This document shows, one piece after another, positions 30,617 to 40,225 of a DNA stretch of 64,000 nt (position 1 is its first letter; each line of letters starts with the position of its first letter). Source of the stretch: Desulfosporosinus sp. Sb-LF (lineage in GTDB: Bacteria; Bacillota; Desulfitobacteriia; Desulfitobacteriales; Desulfitobacteriaceae). The position numbers and the translations under genes were made by a program. The stretch spans positions 496,001 to 560,000 of the forward strand of contig NZ_SPQR01000001.1 in the NCBI RefSeq assembly GCF_004766055.1, in the 5' to 3' direction. The notes beneath the pieces are model-generated. The model saw only the letters and a list, made by a program, of their open reading frames with translations. It was not told where the DNA came from and made no database searches.

Positions 30617-31465
30617 ATGGTAAACAAACTTCTCATGAATGGACCAGTGATTCTCGTGCGCGGGGCTGGGGAACAAGCCTCAGGAGTAGGTTGGGTTTTG
30701 GCAAAGGCAGGGTTTCGAGTGGTGATGACAGAAGTAGCTAAGCCGCTCATGGTTCGTTGGCCGGTTTGTTTTGGAACGGCTGTTCCAGAAAAAAGATGGC
30801 AAGTGGAGGGGGTTTCGGCTTGCTATGTCGAGAATTCCATTGTGGATTGCGAAACTGCTTGGAAAGCAGGGGAAATTCCAATTTTGGTTGACCCTCATCT
30901 TGAAGCCCTCTCTAAACTCAATCCTGTTGTCTTAGTTGATGCTATCATGGCCAAACGAAACTTAGGGACAAAGAGAGACATGGCTCCACAGACCATTGGT
31001 TTGGGGCCTGGTTTTACAGCGGGAGTTGATGTCGATCTCGTCGTTGAAACTAACCGTGGGCATTATTTGGGCAAACTCATTTATGCTGGGGCGGCACAAC
31101 CTAATACTGGCACGCCTGGGGTAATAGCGGGGTTTTCTCGGGAGCGGGTTGTCTATTCGCCCAAGGCTGGAATCTTCAAAGCTAAGCGGGACATTGGAGA
31201 ACAGGTTTCAGCAGGAGATAGTTTGGGTGAAATTGATGACGGGGTAAGATCTGAAAAAGTTCTTTCTACCATTGATGGTACATTAAGAGGGTTATTAAGA
31301 ACCAATACTTGTATCCCTGCAAATGTTAAAATAGGAGATATCGATCCCCGAGGGCATCAGGAATATTGTTGGACTGTTTCAGAGAAAGCTCGTGCTATAG
31401 GGTCGTCGGTTTTGCTGGGAATTATGGAAAGCGGAATTCTGAGCCCGCCGATTCTCAGAGTATAG
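30617..31465 (+). CDS. yqeB: Selenium-dependent molybdenum hydroxylase system protein YqeB
   Basis: This 282-aa protein starts at ATG 30617 after AAGGAGA. A nucleotide-binding-like start (VILVRGAGEQASGVGW) and the segment IGLGPGFTAGVDVDLVVETNRGH identify the EF2563/YqeB family, written here in parts around GLGPGF. The C-terminal half has a lipoyl-like KAGIFKAKRDIGEQVSAGD turn. The family is a marker of selenium-dependent molybdenum hydroxylases, with proposed roles in inserting labile selenium or sulfur. It is the last gene of the yqeC-mocA-yqeB set. Confidence 0.9.
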   Translation: MVNKLLMNGPVILVRGAGEQASGVGWVLAKAGFRVVMTEVAKPLMVRWPVCFGTAVPEKRWQVEGVSACYVENSIVDCETAWKAGEIPILVDPHLEALSKLNPVVLVDAIMAKRNLGTKRDMAPQTIGLGPGFTAGVDVDLVVETNRGHYLGKLIYAGAAQPNTGTPGVIAGFSRERVVYSPKAGIFKAKRDIGEQVSAGDSLGEIDDGVRSEKVLSTIDGTLRGLLRTNTCIPANVKIGDIDPRGHQEYCWTVSEKARAIGSSVLLGIMESGILSPPILRV

Positions 31466-31771
31466 AAGATACTCAAGTGATCGAGTTGAACTAAAAGCCT
31501 TTATTTTTGAATAAAATACCAAGTAGTGATAAAAATTCTATAAATGTAAATTAATTTATTATCGAACTTAGTAGGAAAATGCAGATTAATGACGAATAAG
31601 TATAGTGTTAAGAAAAAAGTGAATAGTCTAAAGTATACTCATATATCCTTGATAATTGGATCAAGGGTTTCTACGAGGCAACCGTAATTGCTTCTCTATG
31701 AGCCAGGAATGGTTTATGGGGTATTGTGATTGCGGTTGCTTTTTGTGTGTTTACTATGAGGGGGTGGGAGA
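31466..31771 (+). promoter_or_regulatory. Leader of the NdhFSLM-like operon
   Basis: This 306-bp gap contains A+T-rich sequence with probable promoter elements in its first half (no clear match chosen) and a purine riboswitch with terminator in its second half, listed next. The first gene's ribosome site (GGGGGTGGGAG) follows the terminator. Confidence 0.7.
31636..31744 (+). ncRNA. Purine riboswitch (variant aptamer) with an ON-type terminator platform
   Basis: The aptamer folds as P1 CTCATA/TATGAG (31638-31643 with 31697-31702), P2 CCTTGAT/ATCAAGG, P3 GAGGCA/TGCTTC, with loop bases GG (31658-31659) and CC (31682-31683) able to make the L2-L3 kissing pairs. Core bases fit the purine class: GTTTCTAC in J2/3 (U47 and U51) and C at position 74, which favours guanine-like ligands. 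J1/2 is one base short and position 73 is U instead of A. A terminator stem (31678-31691 with 31726-31739, 14 continuous pairs including three G-U, then TTTTT) uses the P3 bases, so a ligand-bound aptamer should prevent termination. Confidence 0.88.
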
Positions 31772-32614
31772 ATGAAGTATTATCAACCGCGGAGTGTAAG
31801 TGATGCTCTTGAAATAGCACAGACATCTGAGGGGACTTTTTTGGCAGGAGGAACTGATCTCGTACTCCACATGCAAACTGGTAAAGCTCAGCCGTTAGGT
31901 CTTATCGATCTAGGGAAGATATCAGAACTCAGTGAAATCAAGGAAACTGATGGGTATTTGGATATTGGTAGCATGGCAACCTTCGCTGACATGGGACGGA
32001 GTGAACTCGTTTTGAGGAATGCTTCTGCCCTATGGCTGGCTTGTCAAACTATGGGTTCTCCGCAAATTCGGAACCAGGCGACATTGGGTGGAAACTTAGG
32101 TAATTGCTCGCCCGCTGCGGACGGATTACCACCGTTACTTGCGTTGGGAGCGGAAGTTCATCTCATTTCAAAGAAGGGTGATGAGGTCGTTTCGCTAGAG
32201 ACCCTATTGAGTCGCTCGCCCCTTCTTGCACAGGAGACCCTCATTCGAGGATTTCGTATCCCCCTAAAAGGCTTAAAAAGTGGGTTTGCCAAACTGGGAC
32301 GACGTCAGGCTTTAGCCATTGCTCGACTGAGTGTAGCCGTAGCCGTTGAAATGGATGGGTCGAAGGCAGGGAATGTTCGTGTTGCCTTAGGCGCGGTGGG
32401 CAGACGTGCTTTCTTGAGTGAATCATTTTCTCAGAAATTAAGCGACGGGGAATTAAATGGGGTCTGGATCGAACGAGGGGTTGAAGAAGTTCAAAGGGTT
32501 GTCCGGGAGGCCCTTGGGGCACGTGCGTCAGCACAATATAAACGAGTAGCAGTGTCTGGAGTCTTTCGTGAGGCTGTGTCGACGCTTATTTCGGAGGGAG
32601 GGAAAAAGGCATGA
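31772..32614 (+). CDS. FAD subunit of a four-subunit molybdenum hydroxylase (NdhF/XdhB-like)
   Basis: This 280-aa protein has the FAD-binding motif FLAGGTDLVLHM near residue 26 and LGGNLGNCSPAAD near residue 108, both typical of the CO dehydrogenase/xanthine dehydrogenase medium subunit. It has a normal length and a strong GGGAG site at ATG 31772. It passes electrons from the Fe-S subunit to NAD(P) or another acceptor. It overlaps the next gene by 4 nt (ATGA) and is the first gene behind the riboswitch. Confidence 0.92.
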   Translation: MKYYQPRSVSDALEIAQTSEGTFLAGGTDLVLHMQTGKAQPLGLIDLGKISELSEIKETDGYLDIGSMATFADMGRSELVLRNASALWLACQTMGSPQIRNQATLGGNLGNCSPAADGLPPLLALGAEVHLISKKGDEVVSLETLLSRSPLLAQETLIRGFRIPLKGLKSGFAKLGRRQALAIARLSVAVAVEMDGSKAGNVRVALGAVGRRAFLSESFSQKLSDGELNGVWIERGVEEVQRVVREALGARASAQYKRVAVSGVFREAVSTLISEGGKKA

Positions 32615-33078
32615 TAGACATTCAACTTGTTGTTAATCAGAAGACCTATAACTTGAACATTGACCCGAGTGAACGTTTATTGGATGTCTTACGCACTCGC
32701 TTAGGGCTTATGGGAACTAAAGAAGGATGTGGAGAAGGAGAATGTGGTGCCTGTACCGTGATCATTGACGGGAAAACCGTGAACTCCTGTCTTATTCTCG
32801 CAGCTCAGGCCGACGGGTGTGAAATCACCACAATCGAAGGGGTAGGAGATCGGCGCTCACCACATCCAGTGCAAAAGGCCTTTGTTGAAGTTGGGGCTGT
32901 GCAATGTGGTTTTTGTACTCCTGGCATGGTGCTTTCTGCGAAAAACTTACTTGACAAGAACTCACATCCTAGCCATGCCGAAATAGCTGTTGCCATGTCT
33001 GGAAACCTTTGCCGTTGTACTGGATATGATAAAATCCTGCGTGCCGTTAAATTGGCAGCTGAGGAGGGGGTAAGATGA
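32611..33078 (+). CDS. [2Fe-2S] subunit of the molybdenum hydroxylase (NdhS/XdhC-like)
   Basis: This 155-aa protein has both cluster motifs: GCGEGECGACTV with a later NSC for the plant-type cluster, and CGFCTPGM with CRCTGY for the second. Its length is normal for the family. It overlaps both neighbours by 4 nt, a tightly coupled FAD-FeS-Mo order. It relays electrons from the molybdenum subunits to the FAD subunit. Confidence 0.94.
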   Translation: MIDIQLVVNQKTYNLNIDPSERLLDVLRTRLGLMGTKEGCGEGECGACTVIIDGKTVNSCLILAAQADGCEITTIEGVGDRRSPHPVQKAFVEVGAVQCGFCTPGMVLSAKNLLDKNSHPSHAEIAVAMSGNLCRCTGYDKILRAVKLAAEEGVR

Positions 33079-34340
33079 ACACAACCGTAGTGGGTTCCAG
33101 GGTTGTCCGAGAAGATGCGTGGGGGAAAGTTTTCGGGCAGACCAAGTTCCCGGCTGATGTGAATTTGCCGGAACAACTTTATGGGGTGGTTGTGCGTAGC
33201 CCTCATCCTCATGCCCGAGTTCGAGGAATTAATATCGAAAAGGCGATGGGCTTAGGCGGTGTGGTGGCAGTATTGTCGGCAAAAGATGTCCCACATAATT
33301 CGCACGGCGTGCTTTTTCGTGATCAGCCTGTCTTAGCAGATTATGTGCGCATGGTCGGAGACCCAGTAGCCGTGGTTGGGGCTGAAACCTTGGAAATTGC
33401 CAGAGCTGCGGCGAAACTTGTCGAAGTGGATTATGAGGTGTTGCCCGCGGTGTTTAATCCAGAGGAGGCCATGATGCCTGACGTACTCCCTCTTCATCCA
33501 GATCTTCGCCCAACGAATGTCCTCTTTCATATGCCGATTCGTCGTGGAACGATGGAAGAGGGCTGGGCCCTAGCTGATGTGGTGATAGAAAAAGACTACA
33601 ATACGCAACACGTTGACCATGCCTTTTTGCAACCAGAGGCAGTGCTAGCCTATGTAGATGAACGCGGACATATGGTGGTGCAAACTGCAACCCAATATGC
33701 TCACTATGATCGTGGGGAAATCGCCCACGCTTTAGGTCTACGCTTTAGCCAGGTCCAAGTTAAAACTTTGGCTGTAGGAGGGGCTTTCGGAGGGCGTGAA
33801 GACATCTCTCTCCAGATCATAGCAGCTTTAATGGCTCAGACGACGCTCAGACCGGTAAAAATGGAAAACACCAGGGAAGAGTCATTTTATTCTCATTCCA
33901 AGCGTCATCCCATGCGGATGCATTATAAAACAGGTGCGACGAAAGAGGGTAAACTAGTGGCGATGGAAGCCAAAATTATCGGGGATGCAGGCGCTTATGC
34001 TTCGTGGAGTATTAATGTTTTGCGTAAATCGGCGGTTCATGGTACCGGACCGTATGTAATCCCGAATGTTTCCATTGATAGCTATGCAGTGTTTACCAAC
34101 AACCCCTTTACAGGAGCAATGCGGGGGTTTGGAGCGGCTCAAACCGTACTTGCGTACGAGAGCCAAATGGATCTTTTGGCAAAGGAACTAGGGATTTCTC
34201 CTCTTGAAATTCGATTGCGCAATCTTTTTAGGGTGGGAAGTACGACGGCCACTGGACAGGTGCTCACTGGTAGTGTCCCTCTTGACCAGTGTCTAGCAAA
34301 AATCGCACCTTATCTCCAGAGAGGGGAGGGTACTGTATGA
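33075..34340 (+). CDS. Molybdopterin subunit, N-terminal half (NdhL-like)
   Basis: This 421-aa protein carries the a/b hammerhead domain (about 15-125) and the first molybdopterin-binding domain, with GGAFGGREDI near residue 236 and GAMRGFGAAQ near 350. In XdhA and CoxL these are the front half of one 750-800-aa chain. Here the chain stops cleanly and the next gene begins with an ATGA overlap and its own ribosome site. The Eubacterium barkeri nicotinate dehydrogenase has the same split (NdhL and NdhM). The substrate is probably a purine, given the riboswitch and neighbours. Confidence 0.88.
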   Translation: MNTTVVGSRVVREDAWGKVFGQTKFPADVNLPEQLYGVVVRSPHPHARVRGINIEKAMGLGGVVAVLSAKDVPHNSHGVLFRDQPVLADYVRMVGDPVAVVGAETLEIARAAAKLVEVDYEVLPAVFNPEEAMMPDVLPLHPDLRPTNVLFHMPIRRGTMEEGWALADVVIEKDYNTQHVDHAFLQPEAVLAYVDERGHMVVQTATQYAHYDRGEIAHALGLRFSQVQVKTLAVGGAFGGREDISLQIIAALMAQTTLRPVKMENTREESFYSHSKRHPMRMHYKTGATKEGKLVAMEAKIIGDAGAYASWSINVLRKSAVHGTGPYVIPNVSIDSYAVFTNNPFTGAMRGFGAAQTVLAYESQMDLLAKELGISPLEIRLRNLFRVGSTTATGQVLTGSVPLDQCLAKIAPYLQRGEGTV

Positions 34341-35347
34341 AAAAACGGGGAATCGGTTTAGGCTGTGCATGGTACGGAACGGGTTATGGAAACGGCTTTC
34401 CGGATGTTTCTAGTGCCTTTGTGGAAATTCATGACGACGGCTCGGCGACGGTACTGACCGGGGCTGTTGATGTGGGTCAAGGAAGTAACTCGATCTATGC
34501 TCAAATCGTTGCAGAAGAACTTGGTCTTCAAGCTCAGGATATCTGTGTCTATTCAGCCGACACAGATGCGACGCCGGATTCGGGGACGACGGCAGCAACT
34601 CGGCAAACCTATAACACAGGGAATGCAGTACTGAAAGCAGTTCGTCAGGCGAAAGTTCGTTTATTGGATTATGCAGCACACAAATTTTCTTGTCCGACTT
34701 CGGAAGGAATCGAATTAAAAGAGGGCTTTATCGGGGTTAAGGGTGATCCTACCCGCCGGATGTTCTTGGCTGACATGGTCTTTCAGGCTCGTATAAATGG
34801 TGAACGGTTTATCAGTGCAGAGAGTTCGACTGCGCGTTCGACCCCGGTTGATCCAGAAACCGGGCAGGGGGCTCCCTACTGGCCTTATTCTTTCGGATGT
34901 CAGTCGGCCGAAGTTGAGGTCGATACCGAAACAGGAATTGTCCGTGTTCTAAAAGTCGTTGCAGTTCATGATGTTGGAAAAGCCTTAAATCCTACACAAG
35001 TAGAAGGGCAAATTGCAGGTGGGGTAGTCCAAGGAATTGGGTTCGCTTTGCTTGAGGAACTGGAATTACAAGAGGGAAGAATTAAAAATCCTGCCTTTTC
35101 CAGTTATTTGATTCCCACGGCCTTAGATGTGCCTAATATAGAAGCCTTCTTCGTAGAAGAGGCAGAGTGTACGGGCCCTTTTGGAGCAAAGGGGCTTGGC
35201 GAGCCTGCTATGCTACCAACGGTCGCAGCCGTAATCAATGCGATCGATGACGCTGTGGGAGTAAGGATCACGTCTTTACCAGCGACTCCGGAAAAAATTC
35301 TACAAGCGCTAGCAGAGATGAAACAAGGGAGGGATACAGAAAACTAA
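34337..35347 (+). CDS. Molybdopterin subunit, C-terminal half (NdhM-like)
   Basis: This 336-aa protein starts at ATG 34337, overlapping the previous stop, with GAGGGGAGGG upstream. It contains the second molybdopterin-binding domain: GAVDVGQGSNSI, DSGTTAATRQTY, VHDVGKALNP and the active-site Glu region GAKGLGEPAML. Together with the preceding gene it makes one complete XdhA-like molybdenum subunit. It matches NdhM of nicotinate dehydrogenase in position and size. As in that enzyme, labile selenium is likely, given the YqeB and YqeC genes just upstream. Confidence 0.88.
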   Translation: MKKRGIGLGCAWYGTGYGNGFPDVSSAFVEIHDDGSATVLTGAVDVGQGSNSIYAQIVAEELGLQAQDICVYSADTDATPDSGTTAATRQTYNTGNAVLKAVRQAKVRLLDYAAHKFSCPTSEGIELKEGFIGVKGDPTRRMFLADMVFQARINGERFISAESSTARSTPVDPETGQGAPYWPYSFGCQSAEVEVDTETGIVRVLKVVAVHDVGKALNPTQVEGQIAGGVVQGIGFALLEELELQEGRIKNPAFSSYLIPTALDVPNIEAFFVEEAECTGPFGAKGLGEPAMLPTVAAVINAIDDAVGVRITSLPATPEKILQALAEMKQGRDTEN

Positions 35348-35531
35348 ACTGTGTAAACTAGGGAGAAGCTAGAAGACAATAAGTAGAAACCTAAAAGTAA
35401 ACTGAATATGGCACGTCAAGTTAAGTCGACTATCTGAGTGGAACTCAGGCGCACAAGAACATATTCTTGTTATTCGCAAATTTGTTCGGATACAGGGATG
35501 ATGTGGGGAAATTATTTTGGGGGGGCTGTGC

Positions 35532-36896
35532 ATGTCAACGATGCCAAAGAATATGCCACCGGCAAGTAATGCCAATGGCTTATTGGAAAAAATCTTTCAT
35601 TTATCGGAATTAGGGACAAACGTACGGACTGAAATTCTCGCGGGCATCACCACATTTGTGACCATGGCCTATATTCTTTTTGTTAACCCGAATATATTGA
35701 AGGATGCTGGAATGCCTGTGAATGCGACGTTTGCTGCAACGGCTATTGCTGCAGCGGTCGCCACATTGATCATGGGTGTGTATGCAAACTATCCGATCGC
35801 CTTGGCTCCAGGCATGGGGCTTAATGCGTTCTTCACGTATGCTGTAGTACTTGGCATGAAGCTTCCTTGGCAAACTGCACTTGGAGCAGTCTTCATCTCT
35901 GGCTTTGTCTTTTTTCTAATGACCGTAACAAGGGTTCGGGAATGGATTATCGAAGGAGTTCCTCCGGTGTTGAGGCTCTCTATCGGGGTCGGGATTGGTC
36001 TGTTTATTGCTTTTATTGGACTAAAAGATGGGGGTCTAGTTGTAGCGGATCCAGCAACGTTTGTCGCACTTGGTCACATGAAATCTCCTGGTGTACTTGT
36101 GACTGTTTTTGGCTTGATTGTGACAGGATTTTTAATGGCGAAGCGAGTCAAGGGTGGCATGTTGATCGGAATTTTCTTCACCACAATTTTCAGTATGATT
36201 ATGGGCGTTTCTCCGCTTCCAACAGGGATATCCAGTTTTGTCAGTCCTACTAATCCTATTGCAGCAATCGCGCCGATCGCGTTCCATTTGGATATTATGG
36301 GTGCTTTTAACTATGGCCTAATTTCAATTCTCTTTGCTTTTACGTTTGTAGATTTATTTGATAATATTGGCACACTGCTCGGAGTTTCCCGTAAAGCTGG
36401 CCTTCTGGACGAGAAAGGGAATTTACCACGTGCCGGTAAAGCTCTGATGGCGGACTCAATTGGGACAATGTTTGGGGCTGCTATGGGGACCCCTACGGTG
36501 ACCTCTTACATCGAGAGTGCATCTGGTGTATCCGAAGGTGGCAAAAGCGGCTTGACTGCAGTGACAGTCGCAGCTCTCTTTGCAATCTCGATTATCTTTG
36601 CACCACTAGTTGGCTTGATTCCCGGACAAGCGACTGCACCTGTTCTTATTTTAGTGGGTGTTTTGATGATGAGCGAAGTAACTCAAATTAACTTTGAGGA
36701 CTTTACAGACGCTTTTCCAGCCTTTATGACGATAGTCATGATGCCTTTAACGTTCTCTATTGCTCAAGGTTTAGCATTTGGATTTATGTCTTTTACAATT
36801 ATTAAATTAGTTACTGGAAAGCACAAGGAAAACAATGCTGTCACATATACTTTAACGGTCCTATTTATCATTCACTTTATACTCGGTGGCGGTTGA
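35532..36896 (+). CDS. AzgA/PbuG-type hypoxanthine/guanine/adenine permease
   Basis: This 454-aa protein starts at ATG 35532, about 6 nt after a GGGGGGG run; the TTG at 35517 lies before that site. It is a multi-helix NCS2/AzgA transporter with AGITTFVTMAYILFVNP near residue 36, ALAPGMGLNAFFTY near 90, FVDLFDNIGTLLG and GTPTVTSYIESASGV, all hallmarks of COG2252. These carriers import hypoxanthine, guanine or adenine by proton symport, unlike the xanthine/urate-type permease at 3683. The upstream 180 bp show small hairpins but no recognisable riboswitch. Confidence 0.92.
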   Translation: MSTMPKNMPPASNANGLLEKIFHLSELGTNVRTEILAGITTFVTMAYILFVNPNILKDAGMPVNATFAATAIAAAVATLIMGVYANYPIALAPGMGLNAFFTYAVVLGMKLPWQTALGAVFISGFVFFLMTVTRVREWIIEGVPPVLRLSIGVGIGLFIAFIGLKDGGLVVADPATFVALGHMKSPGVLVTVFGLIVTGFLMAKRVKGGMLIGIFFTTIFSMIMGVSPLPTGISSFVSPTNPIAAIAPIAFHLDIMGAFNYGLISILFAFTFVDLFDNIGTLLGVSRKAGLLDEKGNLPRAGKALMADSIGTMFGAAMGTPTVTSYIESASGVSEGGKSGLTAVTVAALFAISIIFAPLVGLIPGQATAPVLILVGVLMMSEVTQINFEDFTDAFPAFMTIVMMPLTFSIAQGLAFGFMSFTIIKLVTGKHKENNAVTYTLTVLFIIHFILGGG

Positions 36897-36957: not shown

Positions 36958-36985
36958 GTAGGGGCAATTCACGAATTGCCCCTAC
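36958..36985. repeat. Perfect 28-nt palindrome
   Basis: GTAGGGGCAATTC, two bases, then GAATTGCCCCTAC gives a 13-bp perfect stem. Similar GGGGCAATTC hairpins are familiar as dispersed repeats in several bacterial genomes. It lies between the permease and an amidohydrolase gene and may also act as a transcription stop. A second hairpin, CCCTTC-GCAA-GAAGGG, follows at about 37000-37015. Confidence 0.7.
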
Positions 36986-37032
36986 TTATGAGGAAAAAGC
37001 CCTTCGCAAGAAGGGAAAGGGTGGGAATAGAT

Positions 37033-38364
37033 ATGCTTACTCTTTTTAAGAATGCTAAGATTGTGACTATGAATGCACAACGAGAGATTATTCAAGGAGA
37101 TTTACTAGTCGATGGGTCTCAGATTGTGGCGGTGGGAGGAGTTATTGAACAACAGGCAGATCAAGTGATCGACCTCCGTGGTGATTTACTGATTCCCGGT
37201 TTGATTCAGACTCATATTCATCTCTGCCAGACTCTTTTTCGGGGACAGGCGGATGATTTGGAACTTTTGGATTGGCTTAAACAACGTATTTGGCCGCTAG
37301 AAGGCGGTCATGATTCTGAATCCTTAAGCGATTCCGCATTACTCGGAATTGGAGAATTGTTCCTTGGAGGGACTACGACGATCGTGGATATGGAAACCGT
37401 GCATCACACGGAACATGCTTTTGAGGCTATCCTCTCCAGTGGCCTGAGGGCTTTGGCGGGAAAGGTAATGATGGATGATCCGAATGGAGATATTCCACGT
37501 TCTTTGCAGGAGACGACGGAGGATTCTTTGCAAGAAAGTGTGGACTTATATGAGAAATATCACGGGAAAGGAAATGGGCGACTGGAAGTTGTTTTCACGC
37601 CTCGTTTCGTTATTTCCTGTACCGATACGTTATTAAAAGAAGTTTCGCGAATTGCTCGTGGGAAAAATGCCTTTGTGCACACTCACGCTTCAGAAAATCG
37701 AGGAGAAATCCAGCTTGTAGAGAGCACTCGCGGAATGCGCAATATCATCTATTTAGATAAGGTTGGCTTAACCGGCCCGAAGCTTATTCTTGCTCACTGC
37801 ATCTGGCTGGATGAAGCGGAAAAAGAAATCCTGGTTCAGAGTAAAACAAGGATCTCCCATTGCCCTTCTTCAAATTTGAAACTGGCTTCAGGGATCGCGC
37901 CGATTCCGGAACTTATTTTGCGCGGGGCAGAGATTTCCCTAAGTGCAGATGGAGCTCCTTGTAGTAATAACCTAGATGGGTTCAGGGAGATGCGCCACGC
38001 TGCCTTGATTCAAAAACCGTTGCATGGACCGACGGTAATGCCAGCCCAAAAGGTCTTTGAACTTGCAACCCTTGGTGGTGCTCGGGCCATAGGACACGAA
38101 CATGATCTTGGAAGTTTGGAAATCGGGAAAAAAGCGGATTTGGCAGTTGTTAGCTTACAGGGTTTACACACTTGGCCTAATGAACACGTTGATGTCTATT
38201 CACAGTTGGTGTATCAAGCGACTTCATCAGATGTGCGTCTCACAATGGTAGATGGGCAAATCGTGATGCAAGATCGGCAGCTTTTAACGATCGATGTACC
38301 GCGGCTCAAAGAAAGCTCGACACGCAGTATAAATCGAGTGATGAAGAGGGTAGGACTCCTGTAA
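37033..38364 (+). CDS. Purine-type amidohydrolase (5'-deoxyadenosine/guanine deaminase-like, COG0402)
   Basis: This 443-aa protein has metal-site motifs QTHIHLCQTLFRG, HTHASENRGE, LAHCIWL and SADGAPCSNN. The segment around LDWLKQRIWPLEGGHD is typical of MtaD/DadD-like and TrzN-like deaminases. It differs clearly from SsnA and 8-oxoguanine deaminase in this window. ATG 37033 is chosen because GGGTGGGA lies 7 nt upstream; GTG 37021 is possible. Likely substrates are guanine or an adenosine derivative. The choice cannot be made from sequence alone. Confidence 0.8.
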   Translation: MLTLFKNAKIVTMNAQREIIQGDLLVDGSQIVAVGGVIEQQADQVIDLRGDLLIPGLIQTHIHLCQTLFRGQADDLELLDWLKQRIWPLEGGHDSESLSDSALLGIGELFLGGTTTIVDMETVHHTEHAFEAILSSGLRALAGKVMMDDPNGDIPRSLQETTEDSLQESVDLYEKYHGKGNGRLEVVFTPRFVISCTDTLLKEVSRIARGKNAFVHTHASENRGEIQLVESTRGMRNIIYLDKVGLTGPKLILAHCIWLDEAEKEILVQSKTRISHCPSSNLKLASGIAPIPELILRGAEISLSADGAPCSNNLDGFREMRHAALIQKPLHGPTVMPAQKVFELATLGGARAIGHEHDLGSLEIGKKADLAVVSLQGLHTWPNEHVDVYSQLVYQATSSDVRLTMVDGQIVMQDRQLLTIDVPRLKESSTRSINRVMKRVGLL

Positions 38365-38488: not shown

Positions 38489-40225
38489 ATGTCGAGTTTT
38501 AAGCAGAGGATGGATGAAGCTCGAGGGCTTGTGAAAATTGACCTAGTACTGAGAAGGGCGAGGTTGGTCAATGTTTTCTCGGGTGAAATTCACGAAACGG
38601 AAATCGGGATTCATGAAGGGAATTTTGTCGGTATTGGGTCATTCAAAGAAGCGGAGACAGAAGTTGACTTGTGTGGAAACTATGTTGTTCCTGGACTGAT
38701 CGATGGGCATGTTCATATTGAAAGCTCTCTTCTCTGTCCTGAGGAATTTTGTTCGCTCCTTCTTTCCCATGGAGTAACTACGGCTGTGGTGGATCCCCAT
38801 GAGATTGCCAATGTTTTAGGGGTCAAAGGCATTCGTTACATACTTGACAGTGTCGACACATTACCCTTTAACACGTTTGTAGCCCTTCCCTCCTGCGTTC
38901 CAGCAACAGAGCTGGAGACTTCCGGGGCTCATCTTGGAGCTGCGGATTTAGCTGAATTTATTGCGGATCCAAAAGTAATAGGACTTGGAGAAGTAATGGA
39001 TTATCAGGGAGTCATCGAAGCAAAACCAGACATGGTGGAAAAGTTAGAACTTCCTGTGATGTTCAAGGATGGTCATGCTCCAGGAATATCTCCCCAGGAT
39101 TTAAATGCGTATTATAAATCTGGGATACATACCGAACACGAATGTTCTACGGTGGAAGAGGTTAGAGAACGTCTACGGCGTGGGTTTCATGTTATGCTTC
39201 GAGAGGGAAGCGCTGCCAAAAACCTTTTGGACCTTTTACCGGCTGTGACGTCGGAAAATTCAGGACAGTGCCTCTTTGTGACAGATGATCGTCATCCAAT
39301 AGACCTTATCCAGGAAGGAAGCGTCGACCACCTTGTCCGCCTCGCCATTGAGGCTGGTATTGATCCAATACGAGCAATCCAAATGGCGACGATTAATGCG
39401 GCGCGAGCAATTGGGCTTCCTCGATTGGGTGCAGTGGCTCCCGGGTATCAAGCGGACTTCGTTATCCTAAAAGATCTTAATCGATTTGACATCAAGGAAG
39501 TCTATTGGCGTGGGGTAAAACAAAGTGGGAGTGATGTTAGTAGGAGAGAACGTCTGCGATTTCCACGCTTCAGTATAGCGGGGTTAACCGAGAGTGTTAA
39601 TCTTGGTAACTGGTCCGATAATAAACTCAAAGTCTCAGCTAGAGAAAAGGAAGCGAATCACGCCAAAGTTCAGGTAATTGGGGTTAAGGGGCATTCACTG
39701 GTGACGGCAGCCTTGTCGCGGAAACTTCCGGTAAAGAATGGGTTTGTTCAGACAGACCAGGCACAGGGAATCGCAAAAATTGCGGTGCTCGAACGGCATC
39801 ATGGGACCGGGAATGTCGGCGTCGGATTTGTTGAAGGCCTGGGGTTGGAAAAAGGAGCTATTGCTTCAACGGTTGCTCACGATTCTCACAATCTGGTCGT
39901 CGTAGGAATGAGTGATGAGGAAATGAATCTTGCGATTCAAACCTGCGCGGAAATGGGTGGCGGACTTTGTTTAGTCGATGGAGATCATGTGATTGGGAAG
40001 TTGCCTTTACCGATTGCCGGTCTTATGACAGATCAGGAGGCTGAACCAGTTACTCAAACCCTGAATGAGTTACATGAGAAAGCACATCTTCTGGGAATTA
40101 GTGAAAGTGTGGATCCATTTATGACACTGGCCTTTCTTTCACTACCGGTGATTCCTGAGTTAAAGTTGACAGATTTAGGGTTAGTCGATGTAGATCGCTT
40201 TCGATTGACAGAGACTGTCTTGTAG
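38489..40225 (+). CDS. ade: Adenine deaminase
   Basis: This 578-aa protein has the two-domain form of bacterial adenine deaminase. Motifs are DGHVHIESSLLCPEEF for the metal HxH, TTAVVDPHEIANVLG, FVALPSCVPATELETSG, GLGEVMDY for the bridging Glu, and a C-terminal AVATVAHDSHNL-like segment (IASTVAHDSHNLVVVG). The enzyme turns adenine into hypoxanthine, which the molybdenum hydroxylases in this window can oxidise. GGAGGGAG precedes ATG 38489. The stop codon directly abuts a transporter relic, so sequence after the gene has been deleted or rearranged. Confidence 0.95.
   Translation: MSSFKQRMDEARGLVKIDLVLRRARLVNVFSGEIHETEIGIHEGNFVGIGSFKEAETEVDLCGNYVVPGLIDGHVHIESSLLCPEEFCSLLLSHGVTTAVVDPHEIANVLGVKGIRYILDSVDTLPFNTFVALPSCVPATELETSGAHLGAADLAEFIADPKVIGLGEVMDYQGVIEAKPDMVEKLELPVMFKDGHAPGISPQDLNAYYKSGIHTEHECSTVEEVRERLRRGFHVMLREGSAAKNLLDLLPAVTSENSGQCLFVTDDRHPIDLIQEGSVDHLVRLAIEAGIDPIRAIQMATINAARAIGLPRLGAVAPGYQADFVILKDLNRFDIKEVYWRGVKQSGSDVSRRERLRFPRFSIAGLTESVNLGNWSDNKLKVSAREKEANHAKVQVIGVKGHSLVTAALSRKLPVKNGFVQTDQAQGIAKIAVLERHHGTGNVGVGFVEGLGLEKGAIASTVAHDSHNLVVVGMSDEEMNLAIQTCAEMGGGLCLVDGDHVIGKLPLPIAGLMTDQEAEPVTQTLNELHEKAHLLGISESVDPFMTLAFLSLPVIPELKLTDLGLVDVDRFRLTETVL

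Follow-up and report, generated by a model that had tools for sequence, protein, structure and literature searches.

What is a guanine-class riboswitch doing in front of genes that would break purines down, and in which direction does it act? An initial annotation of the window (the whole 64 kb stretch of the Desulfosporosinus sp. Sb-LF genome analysed here, 64,000 nucleotides) had placed a purine riboswitch before a molybdenum hydroxylase operon and proposed that it turns the operon on. We think it likely that a guanine-class purine riboswitch, acting on transcription as an ON switch, lies before an operon of the xanthine dehydrogenase (XDH) type.

The proposed target is catabolic. The operon (all features given here lie on the + strand) begins with the FAD subunit of an XDH-type molybdenum hydroxylase (31772-32614; NF043083, 145.6 bits), followed by a 2Fe-2S subunit (32611-33078; NF043084, 193.5 bits) and a molybdopterin subunit divided between two open reading frames, one for the N-terminal half (33075-34340; TIGR03196, 390.9 bits) and a separate one for the C-terminal half (34289-35347, likely start ATG at 34337; TIGR03194, 247.5 bits). 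These XDH-type matches all fall under the curated equivalog cut-offs; with that limit, the three kinds of subunit agree with the annotated molybdenum hydroxylase operon. The two molybdopterin frames probably overlap by ATGA. The split is common to most relatives (the gene is unbroken in L045 and L047) and recalls the split subunits of nicotinate dehydrogenase. A purine permease-like transporter (35517-36896, an open reading frame read by eye, with no NCBIfam match) probably belongs to the same operon, and beyond it lie an amidohydrolase related to guanine deaminase, which passes the 5'-deoxyadenosine deaminase model (36976-38364; NF005557, 670 bits, cut-off 522), and an adenine deaminase (38489-40225; TIGR01178, 605 bits, cut-off 472.5). 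Upstream, matches above cut-off identify a selenium-dependent xanthine dehydrogenase (TIGR03311), a hydantoinase (TIGR02033) and YqeB (TIGR03309), and a carbamoyltransferase, a carbamate kinase and others were named by eye; this upstream set may be read as an anaerobic purine degradation cluster.

The claim of a purine riboswitch is borne out by an Rfam scan, in which Purine (RF00167) was the sole RNA family in the window: the match at 31619-31718 (+) is full-length and scores 67.2 bits against a gathering threshold of 37 (E 1.3e-9). Folded in isolation, the aptamer forms a three-way junction. Its helices, read from the fold, are P1 (31638-31643 with 31697-31702, the 5' strand also supported by the RF00167 alignment), P2 (31647-31666; 31647-31653 with 31660-31666, closing a 6-nt loop L2) and P3 (31675-31694; 31675-31681 with 31688-31694, closing a 6-nt loop L3, also supported by the genus alignment). 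The joining segments, read from alignments, are J1/2 (31644-31646, aligned to RF00167 and R1), J2/3 (GUUUCUAC, 31667-31674) and J3/1 (31695-31696, UC), the last two without insertions. Numbered as in B. subtilis xpt, positions 31644, 31668, 31672, 31695 and 31696 are U22, U47, U51, U73 and C74. The ligand-contacting residues U22, U47, U51 and C74 are thus all retained, including the guanine-class C74 that had been annotated. The annotation was silent on its neighbour: A73, the guanine consensus base in J3/1, is replaced by U. A73 is common in the guanine class, yet lies outside the ligand-contacting bases. Judged from sequence, U73 makes a standard guanine-I aptamer a less secure label and leaves the purine-family assignment standing. 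The consensus pair C54-G72 is also changed, to G54-C72.

How does this aptamer compare with known members of the fold? Four candidate classes were rejected. An adenine riboswitch requires U74, and the window has C74; xanthine-II carries U51G and insertions in J2/3 and J3/1, all absent here; guanine-II has a one-nucleotide J2/3 insertion that is likewise absent; and xanthine-I (NMT1) is a separate hairpin motif, whereas no family other than RF00167 attains its cut-off in the window. The 8-oxoguanine riboswitch of Paenibacillaceae is an ON variant of the purine fold on a purine deaminase gene. Guanine-I (the xpt-pbuX type, RF00167) shares with the window switch the U22, U47, U51, C74 pocket and the absence of junction insertions, but it is usually an OFF switch on synthesis, salvage or uptake genes. 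Xanthine-II is a variant of the same fold that is associated with xanthine dehydrogenase among other genes, including purine degradation genes, and it is predicted to act as an ON switch, with ON architecture predicted in some examples (PMC9295807). Guanine-II resembles the window switch in its guanine-type residues and its predicted ON direction (PMC9295807), but it differs in J2/3 and other junction variations, and it is found mostly on phosphoribosyltransferase genes.

The direction of the response is best judged from the terminator. The initial annotation described a stem of 14 pairs (31678-31691 with 31726-31739) that is followed by TTTTT (31740-31744) and reuses P3 and L3, and this proved exact; the stem is further lengthened by pairing of 31675-31677 with 31740-31742. 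The overlap had been understated, because an apical hairpin of 12 pairs (31694-31705 with 31710-31721, 4-nt loop) also takes the 3' strand of P1 and J3/1. Basal stem (31678-31739) and apical hairpin (31694-31721) together form one long hairpin that consumes P3, L3, J3/1 and the P1 3' strand. Since P1 and P3 are both lost in it, aptamer and terminator are mutually exclusive, which is the architecture of an ON switch. Fold energies are well under those of shuffled sequences (z -7 to -9): 31678-31744 folds at -36.7 kcal/mol against -14.25 +/- 2.65 for shuffles (z -8.5), and the full 31636-31744 has a z of -9.0. No separate terminator was found after P1, where 31703-31750 folds at -7.0 kcal/mol (z -0.2), and the long hairpin is the only terminator before the XDH-type operon.

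These observations weigh heavily on the reading in which ligand promotes termination or blocks translation. Such an OFF switch would follow the usual direction of guanine riboswitches (PMC5912903, PMC9295807), and the other purine copies in this genome have no P3-overlapping terminator. But the sole terminator here cannot coexist with the aptamer, the RNA after P1 offers no other, and XDH-linked switches share the overlap, with tracking changes (below). We consider an OFF switch very unlikely, and the ON architecture originally proposed holds.

The closest parallel for an ON switch of this kind is the B. subtilis pbuE adenine riboswitch. It too is a purine three-way junction and an ON switch (as predicted here) whose intrinsic terminator forms at the expense of P1 and of P3 including L3 (PMC7707468), and the window terminator likewise overlaps the P1 3' strand and P3/L3. 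The pbuE switch differs in having U74, sensing adenine and controlling an efflux pump, whereas the window switch has C74, an XDH-type operon and a sigma-H-type promoter. In pbuE, bound ligand blocks a strand exchange that otherwise proceeds kinetically through P1, J3/1 and P3 (PMC7707468). Stepwise folding of the window RNA gave a similar picture: until the RNA extends to about 31715 the aptamer is the main state, lying within 0.7 kcal/mol of the ensemble; at 31718-31730 a hairpin competing with P1 leads by 3 to 9 kcal/mol; and from 31739 the full terminator is ahead by about 22 kcal/mol. As this last lead exceeds what ligand binding can repay, the switch must work kinetically, and ligand would have to act before terminator formation is finished, as for pbuE.

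Is the aptamer still under selection? It has the lowest purine score in its genome (67.2 against 76.6-83 bits) and carries U73, and both would fit a relic that senses no purine, with a terminator that is constitutive or responds to something else. A search of 30 genomes of the genus showed that the lower-scoring purine copies form a set apart from the usual ones. In the alignment of 26 such copies, window included, U73 and G54-C72 are present in all 26, and the junction residues are nearly invariant while P2 changes in a compensatory manner, three pairs having changed on both sides. What loss looks like is illustrated by Desulfosporosinus UBA8487, in which a decayed duplicate (L109:534-605) lies upstream of an intact switch: core residues 22, 46 and 52 are changed, and helices are broken by the loss of several pairs. 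A relic seems most improbable, and a functional aptamer is the preferred reading. Most of the aligned copies stand before the XDH operon; in some genomes the gene directly after the copy is the permease or the amidohydrolase, and in two of these a remnant of the molybdopterin gene intervenes. The higher-scoring purine copies of the genus have A73, and nearly all terminators found for them sit downstream of the aptamer.

Several other aptamers were observed in these genomes. On contig C3 of the window's own genome, a second XDH-like operon and an adjoining class V aminotransferase gene are preceded by A73 aptamers of the canonical kind (L115:2585-2659 and L115:4185-4259) with terminators downstream only, a design opposite to that of the window switch. 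The same contig has an aptamer before purE (L116:2755-2931), followed by a match to Guanidine-I (ykkC) at 47.5 bits against a threshold of 63; such a leader fits a tandem guanine-PRPP riboswitch. In three genomes of the genus there is a U51G variant with a longer J3/1 (L039:1016-1091, L040:3013-3088, L046:3013-3089), upstream of a different molybdenum hydroxylase and with a terminator that overlaps the aptamer. It resembles xanthine-II, which has been reported from Paenibacillus and others.

The arrangement extends beyond the genus. A protein-profile search yielded 80 named XDH relatives, and 28 of these loci have a clear purine aptamer, which precedes the XDH genes in all but one (L202 differs); at the other 52 (for example Caloramator, Tissierella and Alkaliphilus) no such match was found within the flanks examined. 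Wherever an XDH-preceding aptamer was scored, the terminator hairpin begins inside P3. One copy (L152) fell outside hairpin scoring owing to its U-tract, with a complementary arm visible by eye, and in D. sp. I2 (L146) the terminator helix is imperfect. The same overlap is found before orthologous operons in Desulfosporosinus spp., Paradesulfitobacterium ferrireducens, Acididesulfobacillus acetoxydans and CEB3, and also in Moorella thermoacetica, M. stamsii, M. mulderi and a Thermanaeromonas MAG; a phylum-level sample added further XDH-linked copies with the overlap (L117, L122, L125, L131 and L137).

If one strand serves two partners, the terminator arm should follow P3/L3 as sequences diverge. 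In a swap test at 18 sites, 16 nt from P3/L3 were paired with the 23 nt up to the U-tract, using either the real or swapped partners. The real pairs summed to -329.3 kcal/mol against -234.8 +/- 17.4 for swapped ones; with one site per lineage (9 sites), which does not fully remove shared ancestry, the sums were -194.6 and -138.5 +/- 13.6 kcal/mol. None of 20,000 swaps was as low as the real partners in either test. The 3' terminator arm changes along with P3/L3 across lineages and, since P3 pairing is also kept, one strand is held complementary to two partners, as a mutually exclusive switch predicts. A duplex-energy cut-off was tried as an ON/OFF classifier and dropped: a limit of -9 kcal/mol picked up 32 of the 33 XDH-linked sites together with many unrelated ones. 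Given this lack of specificity, we rely on whole-hairpin folds and the swap test.

Which purine would be sensed is a separate matter, and position 73 is central to it. The same ON switch might have a ligand shifted by this base; an oxidised purine would then be preferred to guanine, be it hypoxanthine, xanthine, urate or a further substrate of the hydroxylase. All genus copies examined have U73, G73 occurs in Moorella, DJKA97, Soudan17 and L125, nearly all non-XDH purine copies have A73, and in known variants J3/1 changes go with altered specificity (PMC9295807). Against this, every residue reported as ligand-contacting is retained, and the orthologous XDH-linked switches of sister genera keep A73 with the same target genes, so that the target does not need the change. 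We regard a shifted ligand as possible but doubtful, and favour a guanine-class pocket in which U73, beside C74, might lower or alter binding. In ordinary guanine aptamers the discrimination against hypoxanthine and xanthine is only about tenfold (PMC9295807), and with discrimination this weak, substrates of the operon could act directly as ligand. In Paradesulfitobacterium ferrireducens, a variant relative with G54-C72, G73 and a sigma-H-type element (L098:4807-4880) stands before an unrelated-looking large open reading frame.

Alignment of the regions upstream of the switches revealed a second conserved element, which matches the sigma-H consensus, RNAGGAWWW-N11-12-RNNGAAT. In the window it is GTAGGAAAATGCAGATTAATGACGAAT (31571-31597, +), the only match to AGGAWWW-N10-12-RNNGAAT in 64 kb, where about one is expected by chance. 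A strict form of the pattern does not pick up copies whose first -10 base is C, and a looser one with its own shuffle control was used for the counts: the element (AGGA...GAAT) precedes 31 of 34 XDH-linked switches (1.4 expected by chance) and 4 of 69 other purine switches (2.0 expected). As a control we used spoVG, a known sigma-H target in B. subtilis, which has the element upstream in six of six genomes; it also precedes spoIIAA in three of eight, and was found in none of 10 spo0A upstream regions within 260 nt. A sigH gene is present in the genome (377.7 bits, cut-off 294.8), and a scan of 31300-31900 found no sigma-70 promoter. Assignment to sigma-H, which rests on the motif, is likely; promoters of this type serve cells that have ceased to grow. 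The element also accompanies an aptamer with a P3-overlapping terminator before a lipoprotein gene, by its look a purine or nucleoside ABC transporter component (L124:1501-1573); the pairing of overlap and promoter may thus extend to purine uptake.

The promoter also bears on whether the operon is mainly transcribed from elsewhere, by read-through from the yqeB side or from an internal start, leaving the switch with little weight. The genes upstream run in the same direction and are part of the same pathway, but the gap of about 150 nt after yqeB contains the conserved promoter element, and upstream read-through would still meet the terminator. We give this reading little credence and retain a switch that governs the operon.

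Under the favoured model, RNA polymerase would start at the sigma-H-type promoter about 30 nt before the aptamer, and the aptamer would fold first. Without ligand, RNA emerging after 31718 would pair with the P1 3' strand and then invade P3 and L3, and transcription would end in the U-tract (31740-31744). Once bound, a purine base (guanine, hypoxanthine or xanthine, to judge from U22, U47, U51 and C74) would hold P1 and the junction and bar this invasion, letting polymerase proceed into the molybdenum hydroxylase, permease and deaminase genes. The combined rule would be that growth arrest and purine together lead to purine oxidation; we infer the ligand, the direction of the response, promoter use and this rule. 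More speculatively, the position-73 variants (U in Desulfosporosinus, G in Moorella) might form an aptamer class with specificity shifted to a hydroxylase substrate. With the sigma-H promoter they would act as a two-input gate, and purine oxidation would be permitted when free purine coincides with entry into stationary phase or sporulation.

In the part of the literature covered, no guanine-class ON switch was described for XDH genes, nor such an arrangement for purine catabolism or for Moorella. What appears new is a guanine-class pocket as a predicted ON switch before XDH genes, joined to a sigma-H-type promoter; the principle is already known from pbuE. The guanine-class pocket would gain a natural ON platform, conserved over several genera, among genes for purine degradation, and a single genome would offer this pocket for comparison in both OFF and ON contexts. 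The recurrent change at position 73 in the XDH-linked set offers a natural test of that base's role. Purine nucleotide levels influence sporulation, and the sigma-H-type link suggests a tie between growth arrest and the breakdown of purines.
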